This document shows, in pieces, positions 21,633 through 50,113 of a DNA stretch of 64,000 nt. The first letter of the stretch is position 1; each line of letters begins with the position of its first letter. The notes beneath the pieces were generated by a model that worked only from the letters and a program-made list of their open reading frames with translations, did not search any database and had not been told where the DNA came from. Both the position numbers and the translations under genes were made by a program. Location: NCBI RefSeq assembly GCF_025490915.1, contig NZ_JANQBA010000015.1, positions 1-64,000 of the forward strand, written 5' to 3'. The DNA comes from Lacticaseibacillus parakribbianus. Lineage in GTDB: Bacteria; Bacillota; Bacilli; Lactobacillales; Lactobacillaceae.

Positions 21633-21995
21633 AGAGGGTGGAGCGAGGCGGGTTTAGCCGGTCGGGTAGCGTAAGGCTGGACATTGGGCCCGAACTTGGC
21701 CCGGTGCCCGGCCTTAGCAGGCCGAACCGGCGTTGCCTCGCGGAACCCGTTTCAGAGGGTGGAACGAGGCGGGTGTAGCCGGTCGGGTAGCGTAAGGCTG
21801 GACATTGGGCCCGAACTTGGCCCAGTGCCCGGCCTTAGCAGGCCGAACCGGCGTTGCCTCGCGGAACCCGTTTTAGAGGGTGAAAAAGCGCGGGTTTAGC
21901 GGGACGGGTAGCCTAGCGCTAGCGTCGGGGCGGGTTGTGCCCCGGCGCTGGTGCGTCGCTAGCCGCTCCCGCGTTGCGATTTGGAACCCGTTTAG
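21633..21995. repeat. Three tandem 120-121-bp structured units between rnr and smpB
   Basis: Units begin at 21633, 21754 and 21875 (AGAGGGT each time) and each closes with GGAACCCGTTT. Units 1 and 2 differ at only a few bases; unit 3 is strongly diverged. Each unit can fold: an outer stem (CGAGGC/GCCTCG in 1 and 2, CGCGGG/CCCGCG in 3) encloses a hairpin with a 7-base loop. That hairpin is TGGGCC/GGCCCG at 21685-21703 in unit 1 and GTCGGGGC/GCCCCGGC at 21924-21946 in unit 3, so pairing survives while sequence changes. No reading frame explains it. Together with its flanks it fills the whole 406-base gap. Confidence 0.85.
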
Positions 21996-27155: not shown

Positions 27156-27187
27156 AAAAAAAGCCCGGCTGTCAATAACCGCCGGGC
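27156..27187 (-). terminator. Strong terminator downstream of non-coding element copy 1
   Basis: GCCCGGC/GCCGGGC stem (27163-27169, 27181-27187) followed by seven T residues on the minus strand. It lies 6 bases past the element, so it would end a minus-strand transcript of it. Confidence 0.85.
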
Positions 27188-27193
27188 CAAAAG

Positions 27194-27611
27194 CACACAA
27201 AGGGTACCGCGGGCTGCCCCGCAGTACCCCAATTGAGATTGAATTGATGAACCGCCCCAACCGCAAGGCAGACCGCCCCCGCCGGCTGGTGAAACCGATT
27301 CGGTTGGTGGTACGCACTGTGGTGGACCCGGCAGTCGCAGCTCCCTGGAATCAAACCAGTTAAGCTGTTTTCTTTTACGCGAATTTCTTCGTCGCTAGAC
27401 ACTCACGCCGCGGACGTGGTCGACATAGGTCGACGTTCATCAGATGAGGATGATAGTCACTGCGAGCTGCCTTAAGCTGCGCTTCGGCCGTGCGACCGAG
27501 AGGCGCTGTCGAATTCTACGACAATAGAATAACACCGGGTGGTTGGAAATACCATGACGCCAGTGTAAATGTTAGGTAAATATCTTGTAAATAAATAACG
27601 CAGGCCGAATG
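27194..27611 (-). ncRNA. Putative structured RNA element, copy 1
   Basis: About 418 bases nearly co-linear with 49696-50113, with long identical blocks and clustered differences. Differences keep pairing: CACG/CGTG (27404-27407, 27415-27418) is CGCG/CGCG in the other copy, and GTCGAC/GTCGAC (27419-27424, 27429-27434) is GTTGAC/GTCAAC. Other shared hairpins are CTGG-TTTGATT-CCAG, AACCGATTCGGTT and a GGGTACC-type end stem (about 27201-27230). The AT-rich end (27561-27600) has three 11-bp-spaced repeats. A terminator follows at the opposite end, favouring minus-strand transcription. I do not recognise a known family; tmRNA, RNase P and 6S do not fit. The bases from 27612 to 27729 hold nothing I can name. 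Confidence 0.6.
27564..27592 (-). promoter_or_regulatory. Three 11-bp-phased direct repeats (Pho-box-like) of copy 1
   Basis: On the plus strand TGTAAAT, GGTAAAT and TGTAAAT start at 27564, 27575 and 27586. On the minus strand these are TTTACA/TTTACC hexamers with 5-base spacers, the arrangement of PhoP-type response-regulator boxes. Which regulator binds is an inference. Confidence 0.5.
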
Positions 27612-27729
27612 CTGAGCCCGGCAAACGGACCTCGCGCCACACGCCGACCCAACGCGCAACACCCGCAGCCACGTGCAAAGCAGCGACCGCTCAGGCGTCA
27701 GGCGCCGCGACGCGCAACCGCAGGACACC

Positions 27730-35958: not shown

Positions 35959-36030
35959 TGCGCAGCCCGGGAGTCGAACCCGGATTTCGAGAACCGGAAT
36001 CTCACGTGCGATCCATTACACTAACCGCGC
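35959..36030 (-). tRNA. tRNA-Arg (anticodon CCG)
   Basis: A complete cloverleaf: acceptor GCGCGGT/GCTGCGC with two G-T pairs, D stem GTG/CAC, anticodon stem TGAGA/TCTCG with loop TTCCGGT, and T stem CCGGG/CCCGG with loop TTCGACT. It reads CGG codons. CCA is not encoded. TATAAT (36040-36045) lies just upstream as its -10. Confidence 0.95.
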
Positions 36031-49695: not shown

Positions 49696-50113
49696 CACAC
49701 GCAAAGGGTACCGCGGGTTGCCCCGCAGTACCCCGGTTGCGATTGAGTTGAGGAATCGACCCAACTGCAAGGCAGACTGCCCCCGCTAGCTGGTGAAACC
49801 GATTCGGTTGGTGGTACGCACTGTGGTGGACCCGGCAGTCGCAGCTCCCTGGAATCAAACCAGAGCCGTTTTCTTTTGCGAGAATTTCTCCATCGCTAGA
49901 CGCTCGCGCCGCGGACGCGGTTGACATAGGTCAACGTTCATCGGATGAGAATGATAGTCACTGCAAGCTGCCGTAGGCTGCGCTTCGGCCGTGCGACCGA
50001 GAGGCGCTGTCGAATTCTACGCCAATAGAATAACACCGGGTGGTCGGAAATACCATGACGCCAGTGTAAATGTTAGGTAAATTTTGTGTAAATAAATAAC
50101 ACTGGGCGAATGC
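49696..50113 (-). ncRNA. Putative structured RNA element, copy 2
   Basis: Nearly co-linear with 27194-27611. The covarying stems here are CGCG/CGCG (49905-49908, 49916-49919) and GTTGAC/GTCAAC (49920-49925, 49930-49935). The shared TTTGATT-loop hairpin, the AACCGATTCGGTT hairpin and the GGGTACC-type end stem (about 49705-49733) are kept. Here the element lies between the trxB terminator and the pgm promoter; no T-rich terminator follows its end stem. Short reading frames in both copies look similar only because the DNA is similar; they lack ribosome sites. Confidence 0.6.
50065..50093 (-). promoter_or_regulatory. Three 11-bp-phased direct repeats (Pho-box-like) of copy 2
   Basis: TGTAAAT, GGTAAAT and TGTAAAT start at 50065, 50076 and 50087 on the plus strand. 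The repeats are identical to copy 1 while the bases between the second and third differ, pointing to selection on the repeats. Confidence 0.5.

Follow-up and report, generated by a model that had tools for sequence, protein, structure and literature searches.

Results

The locus and the likely transcript

The window (the whole stretch of DNA analyzed here, 64,000 nucleotides with a G+C content of 62%) carries a noncoding element on its minus strand between an upstream gene, presumably eno, as named in the preliminary description and in line with its translation, and a gene of the LysE family that is also encoded on the minus strand. The element (27194-27612) aligns over its whole length and with 91% identity to a second stretch (49698-50113), located between a Pyr_redox_2 gene, presumably thioredoxin-reductase-like, and a phosphoglucomutase-family gene. 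This whole-length match had been recognized at the outset. However, the element is not confined to two copies as then described, and BLAST finds 12 in the assembly that contains the window (32 contigs with 2.82 Mb in total), 2 of them inside the window. We refer to the copies as L001 to L012; copy 2 of the window is L004. Nine copies (L001 to L009) give near-full-length BLAST matches, while in L010 to L012 the match is confined to query positions 160 to 268. The match of L007 starts only at query position 77, and its repeats and -10 hexamer continue upstream. A covariance model built from the 12 copies (R1), which matches those by construction, detected no thirteenth copy in the same genome at E-values up to 1. 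The transcript and its ends are as follows.

27193..27525, minus strand: likely transcript of copy 1, about 330 nt, with the 5' end placed from the -10 hexamer
49697..50026, minus strand: likely transcript of copy 2 (L004), placed from the -10 hexamer and the 3' hairpin and tail
27477..27506, minus strand: 5' hairpin GCGC...GCGC, recognized by eye, pairs not counted
27202..27229, minus strand: 3' closing hairpin GGGTACTGCGGG-GCAG-CCCGCGGTACCC, from fold and alignment
27194..27201, minus strand: conserved 3' tail TTTGTGTG, from the alignment of the 12 copies
27156..27181, minus strand: copy-specific intrinsic terminator outside the repeat and before the LysE-family gene, from terminator prediction

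A minus-strand transcript of about 400 bases, bounded by a perfect terminator, had been proposed. We retain the strand but predict a shorter RNA of about 330 nt (27525 to 27193) rather than 415; positions 27526 to 27612 look like a promoter with upstream repeats and lie outside the likely transcript. The terminator exists (27181-27156) but does not form the boundary, being outside the repeat, and the element has its own closing hairpin (27229-27202). Across the copies, the predicted length from the -10 hexamer to the closing hairpin and tail is 279 to 337 nt. The sequence from 27194 to 27530 folds with -134.3 kcal/mol compared to -117.3 for shuffled sequences (z = -3.4; 0 of 100 shuffles as good).

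All 12 copies have a closing hairpin of their own. It is followed by TTTGYG in 11 of them and by CTTAGTG in L008, and the tail contains no U-run. In the alignment of this hairpin (10 of the 12 copies), 98.8% of the cells are paired and two pairs show double changes, a number matched by 49 of 500 shuffles and also obtained when the structure is slid by +2; for further pair types, 500 of 500 shuffles were as high. Hence, the 3' hairpin agrees in part with the reading as a structured RNA. At the position of the 5' hairpin, L008, L009, and L011 have a hairpin of other letters, as judged by eye.

As stated in the preliminary description, the element encodes no plausible protein, and we saw no conserved one. 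We rejected a 21-amino-acid frame in the core as a gene; it has no visible Shine-Dalgarno sequence, and in copy 2 several residues differ and the stop codon is gone.

The order of copy 1, an intrinsic terminator, and a LysE-family exporter gene on the same strand is what a cis-acting leader (a riboswitch or T-box-like element) for the downstream gene would look like. Gene calls based on third-position G+C place a same-strand gene end at most about 550 nt before 9 of the 12 copies, but at 7 of the 12 the gene that follows is convergent, which argues against one cis-switch. The downstream translations differ by eye, with only two assigned to a family, each copy ends in its own hairpin, and no riboswitch matched at the scanned copies. 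We therefore regard a cis-acting leader as highly improbable.

A conserved core closed by a covarying helix

The most conserved part of the element is a core of 109 nt, in which five hairpins are closed by helix P1 in a six-way junction.

27345..27453, minus strand: 109-nt conserved core, H1 to H5, from the alignment
49849..49954, minus strand: core of copy 2, identical to copy 1 at 94 of 109 columns, from the alignment
27459..27471, minus strand: 5' arm of closing helix P1, from covariation
27330..27341, minus strand: 3' arm of closing helix P1, from covariation
27437..27453, minus strand: core hairpin H1, UCAUC-CUCAUCU-GAUGA, from fold and alignment
27419..27434, minus strand: core hairpin H2, GUCGAC-CUAU-GUCGAC, with C-G changed to U-A in copy 2
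27404..27418, minus strand: core hairpin H3, CACG...CGUG, with A-U changed to G-C in copy 2
27377..27395, minus strand: core hairpin H4 with a GAAA loop, presumably of the GNRA type, from fold and alignment
27345..27359, minus strand: core hairpin H5, CUGG-UUUGAUU-CCAG, with an invariant stem and a loop that we take to fit the T-loop pattern, from fold and alignment

The paired changes between the two window copies that first drew attention to the element are real and read on the minus strand (GTCGAC/GTCGAC to GTTGAC/GTCAAC and CACG/CGTG to CGCG/CGCG), and the CTGG-TTTGATT-CCAG hairpin is the same in both, as had been noted. However, the strongest covariation is in P1, which was absent from that first list and becomes visible only with the other copies.

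Of the other 11 copies, 9 have a core identical to that of copy 1 at 106 to 109 of the 109 columns (97 to 100%); the exceptions are L004 (94) and L012 (88). Outside the core, the transcripts are 89 to 93% identical to copy 1 in L002 to L007, 74% in L008 and L009, and 32%, 45%, and 33% in L010, L011, and L012, respectively. L010 illustrates the pattern, with a core one base different from copy 1 and a remainder near random similarity, while in L004 the core is kept no better than its flanks (Fisher's exact test, P = 0.12). This uniformity would fit strong selection acting on the core as well as gene conversion limited to that region. Folded in isolation, the core is not unusually stable, with a z-score of -1.5 (14 of 200 shuffles as good).

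We quantified the covariation with a named structure of 39 pairs (12 in P1, the others in H1 to H5). The alignment contains 12 sequences in 8 distinct rows, all paralogues of one genome, and the counts below therefore reflect few evolutionary events. The named structure exceeded all 500 shuffled alignments on four of five measures: 94.8% of the cells pair (shuffle mean, 86.8%), 10 pairs are double changed (mean, 4.9), 25 cells are double changed (mean, 7.9), and the covariation score is 0.254 (shuffles, 0.111). The fifth measure, further pair types (22 versus 18.4; 31 of 500 shuffles as high), is not decisive. Slid versions of the structure pair at 28 to 41%, and the named structure is above every slide on all measures, although it was drawn by hand from the fold of copy 1 and the alignment and is favored in this comparison for that reason. 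Without guidance, RNAalifold returned nearly the same structure with 40 pairs, 11 of which have double changes.

The signal is unevenly distributed. Double changes affect 8 of the 12 pairs of P1, one pair each in H2 and H3, and none in H1, H4, and H5. In P1, 88.5% of the cells are paired, and the unpaired 11.5% are mostly in the outer part of L010 to L012 as aligned. Among the 27 core pairs, 18 never vary, and these invariant stems are silent on pairing. The two double-changed core pairs come from L004 only, a copy that breaks one pair of H4; in L012, most of H3 is missing and other pairs are broken. Related sequences can outdo shuffles without any structure; this caution is answered in good part by the slid control and by P1, which is written in at least four sets of letters (the types of L001, L008, L010, and L011). 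A possible contact between columns 20 to 23 and the loop of H5 is suggested by a single split, in which L001 to L009 have A-U and L010 to L012 have C-G. Judged from these comparisons, a structured RNA is strongly supported, and a new structured minus-strand RNA, as initially proposed, is still the best reading given the excess of pairing over the shuffles and Rfam scores below threshold at the copies.

Direct repeats upstream of each copy

27564..27591, minus strand: triple direct repeat TTTACA-N5-TTTACC-N5-TTTACA of copy 1, 11-bp period, a putative response-regulator site
50065..50092, minus strand: triple direct repeat of copy 2, from a pattern search
27526..27534, minus strand: candidate extended -10 element TGT-TATTCT of copy 1, placed from the sequence

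With up to two mismatches, the pattern TTTACA-N5-TTTACC-N5-TTTACA matches twice in the window, both times at the copies (shuffle mean, 0.00). In the whole genome, TTTAC-N6-TTTAC-N6-TTTAC has 10 matches, 9 of which are at copies, and the reversed pattern has none. The copies contain two or three TTTAC repeats each; L010 and L011 have two exact repeats and L012 has two with one mismatch, such that TTTAC-N6-TTTAC is exact in 11 of the 12. A TGN precedes the -10 hexamer in 11 copies, and L011 has TAG. The distance from the start of the last TTTAC to the -10 hexamer is 38 bp in five copies (L001 to L004 and L008), 49 bp in four (L005, L006, L007, and L009), and 50 bp in three (L010 to L012). These spacings differ by 11 to 12 bp, about one helical turn, which would suit a bound activator. 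All copies thus have direct repeats in common that keep a fixed phase to the putative promoter, the arrangement expected of a multicopy RNA controlled by a response regulator. In copy 1, a promoter consensus scan favors the repeats themselves as the -35 and -10 elements, and the start site given here is therefore a candidate.

The upstream region of pstS contains no such TTTAC repeat box; regulation by PhoP is therefore not supported. A WalR- or LisR-like regulator would be our guess, based on consensus sequences. Outside the copies, the two-repeat pattern has 6 matches in the genome, not above the 7 of the reversed control.

Several individual sites are recorded here. Double TTTAC repeats are present in the window's genome before a phosphodiester-glycosidase gene (G000:C12:282023), an AI-2E transporter gene (C5:72716), and a CitMHS gene (C23:19357); these three may belong to the same regulon as the copies, with off-copy counts not above the control. 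Two further double sites are next to a small frame and a YjbH/CYTH gene, both of which were recognized by eye. A triple repeat in the same genome (L022, C27:203069-203095) is just upstream of a gene that we take to be YjbH-like, and an almost identical triple repeat in the genus genome G011 (L055) is, judged only by its sequence, taken to be the corresponding site. Genome G005 has a four-repeat TTTAC site in AT-rich DNA and no R1 match.

Distribution of the element

With the 419-nt element as the query, BLAST found no match in 29 other genomes of the genus, and with the 111-nt core it found none in 396 other genomes of the family, in a scan that recovered just 2 of the 12 copies of the element's own genome. 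Model R1 gave one match in the 29 genus genomes at E-values up to 1 (L037, E = 0.216), four in the 396 family genomes at E-values up to 0.1 (L050 to L053, best E = 0.0038), and none in 394 other genomes of the order at E-values up to 0.01; the three genome sets overlap. In these large scans, only a small number of candidates was evaluated in each genome, and the R1 scans of the family and the order retrieved 7 of the 12 own copies, a rate at which a weak relative could be missed. We take the five weak hits as chance: four overlap long reading frames, the fifth (L052) is an apparent terminator stem, and none has TTTAC repeats upstream. Blastn against phages and plasmids gave no match. Exact core patterns were absent from the viral contigs searched, a set that may exclude records close to the genome of the window. 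Among genome contigs, a set of the same limited coverage, they occurred in one contig, an Acidobacteria metagenome-assembled genome; this hit is inside long frames, R1 finds nothing there, and we rejected it. The preliminary description had made its claim depend on homologues elsewhere that preserve the pairing. We found none beyond the species, but the paralogues mostly preserve it.

The closest of the 29 genus genomes by eno (G011, 96% identical) has no R1 match, and after its eno gene a different self-complementary repeat fills the gap to the LysE-family gene. More than half of the letters differ between some copies outside the core and the split from G011 is recent, which makes it hard for the family to have arisen since. 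Either it is older and was lost in relatives, or it entered more than once.

The dispersed and sharply bounded copies in varied intergenic sites, together with the missing copy and the other repeat after eno in G011, are what one would see if the element were a nonautonomous mobile repeat (MITE-like or similar) that spread by transposition, is conserved through recent copying, and folds by chance. However, the two window copies (2 of the 12 were tested) have no inverted pair of 10 or more bases as terminal inverted repeats; the longest exact inverted match in the outer 60 bases is 7, in copy 1, and derives from the flanking terminator stem. L010 to L012 are only 32 to 45% identical to copy 1 outside the core and yet keep the repeats, the -10 hexamer, the P1 pairing, and the tail, which does not fit recent copying, and the double changes in P1 also speak against it. 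We therefore consider a mobile repeat improbable.

The self-complementary repeat of G011 (L084:2938-3160, about 220 bp) is dispersed and MITE-like. With the whole eno-LysE gap as the query, there were 52 matches in G011, 13 in the window's genome (G000), and none in G007 or G001.

Discussion

Relation to known RNAs

At gathering scores, Rfam 15 matched only a tRNA (35959-36030) in the whole window, copies 1 and 2 included. At permissive E-values, the best match to copy 1 reached 20.7 bits against a cutoff of 114, and at six further loci there was no match inside the RNA and one subthreshold match touching the promoter side of L005; the scans thus cover all copies but L003, L006, L007, and L009. 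The early remark was that the element does not fit tmRNA, RNase P, SRP, or 6S RNA. No Rfam match at the scanned copies reaches threshold. In addition, a match resembling a T-box leader (L011:2772-3009, plus strand; 80.8 bits, gathering score 93) lies near one RNA copy and not in it. We found no description of this RNA family in the literature searched.

The core strands of the hammerhead ribozyme are CUGAUGA and GAAA. CUGAUGA is present in 11 of the 12 copies (CCGAUGA in L004), but no GAAA strand directly follows the next stem, and we rejected this candidate. GOLLD, ROOL, OLE, and raiA, the last another large and ornate bacterial RNA, are longer than the present RNA. The first three are likewise large, intricately folded noncoding RNAs, and GOLLD is named after Lactobacillales among others (PMC12286853). 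The present RNA has no Rfam match to any of these families at the scanned copies, and it occurs in 12 copies.

The closest working analogues, in logic only, are the csRNAs (CiaR-dependent small RNAs of streptococci) and LhrC. The csRNAs are encoded in several intergenic copies per genome, carry TTTAAG-N5-TTTAAG with an 11-bp period, and end in a hairpin (PMC3091779, PMC8186281), and the predicted types are 51 to 202 nt long, with one or two stem-loops in 48 of 61 (PMC3091779). The present family shares the multiple intergenic copies, the 11-bp period of the direct repeat, and the hairpin end. The csRNA search placed the CiaR repeat 10 bp before the -10 hexamer (PMC3091779), whereas here the repeat is TTTAC-N6-TTTAC and ends 33 to 45 bp before it, and the RNA has about 280 to 337 nt and a conserved six-way junction instead of mostly one or two stem-loops. 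LhrC of Listeria comprises five sibling copies controlled by one two-component system (LisRK) and requires the promoter region upstream of -53; its target motifs, UCCC, are located in two loops and in a linker (PMC4132741). Sibling copies behind one two-component system, putative in our case, are the common feature; the fold here is much larger, and the sequence relation was compared through Rfam only. Nine of the 12 transcripts contain no UCCC. The other three (L010, L011, and L012) have a single one, and in no copy does the motif fall within the core. As the details that define csRNAs and LhrC (repeat letters and spacing, UCCC) are not found here, we file the family under neither.

These analogues bear on whether the RNAs are trans-acting antisense small RNAs proper, in which the H1 loop and other exposed stretches would pair with the Shine-Dalgarno regions of mRNAs as in csRNAs and LhrC. 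The H1 loop region is C/U rich in the 12 copies (CCUC, UCUC, or CCCUC), and the promoter logic resembles that of csRNAs (PMC3091779) and LhrC (PMC4132741). However, a six-way-junction core that is conserved almost base for base in the majority of copies is not typical of csRNAs, which were mostly predicted with one or two stem-loops (PMC3091779). The conservation extends to loops as well as stems, which somewhat favors a platform for a protein or another common partner over pure antisense action. We consider antisense RNAs proper to be possible but doubtful.

Proposed function

Our preferred reading, with a probability of roughly 0.6, is that the 12 copies form an orphan RNA family whose members are structured, transcribed independently of one another, and probably controlled by a response regulator. 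As for the class of regulator, the induction, the action in trans, and the partner, we infer that an OmpR-type response regulator would bind the TTTAC repeats and induce all copies jointly in response to some stress. The RNAs would then act in trans, with the core as a rigid platform for one common partner. This partner could be a protein; alternatively, exposed loops such as that of H1 could contact several mRNAs. The many copies might raise the dosage or add copy-specific arms.

A rather unlikely extension of this reading is a new RNA machine, in which the 109-nt six-way junction would be a fixed domain that serves as a protein platform, a ligand sensor, or a catalyst and is set into outer sequences of at least three strongly diverged types, with the core kept uniform by selection or core-limited gene conversion and one two-component switch for the whole set.

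Multicopy regulatory RNAs behind a shared two-component switch are already known, and those compared here are small and simple. In the present family, the core is as elaborate as a riboswitch or a small ribozyme, and most copies have it almost unchanged at every base. The letters of the closing helix, in contrast, change and its pairing is preserved, a covariation that is visible within a single genome. Because no described relative was found, the family offers a clean test of the role of the core and of why 12 copies are kept.

Apart from the RNA element, the window contains a tandem pair of a 121-bp unit (21633-21874; the two units are 97% alike), flanked by genes that, from their translations, we take to encode RNase R-like and SmpB-like proteins.
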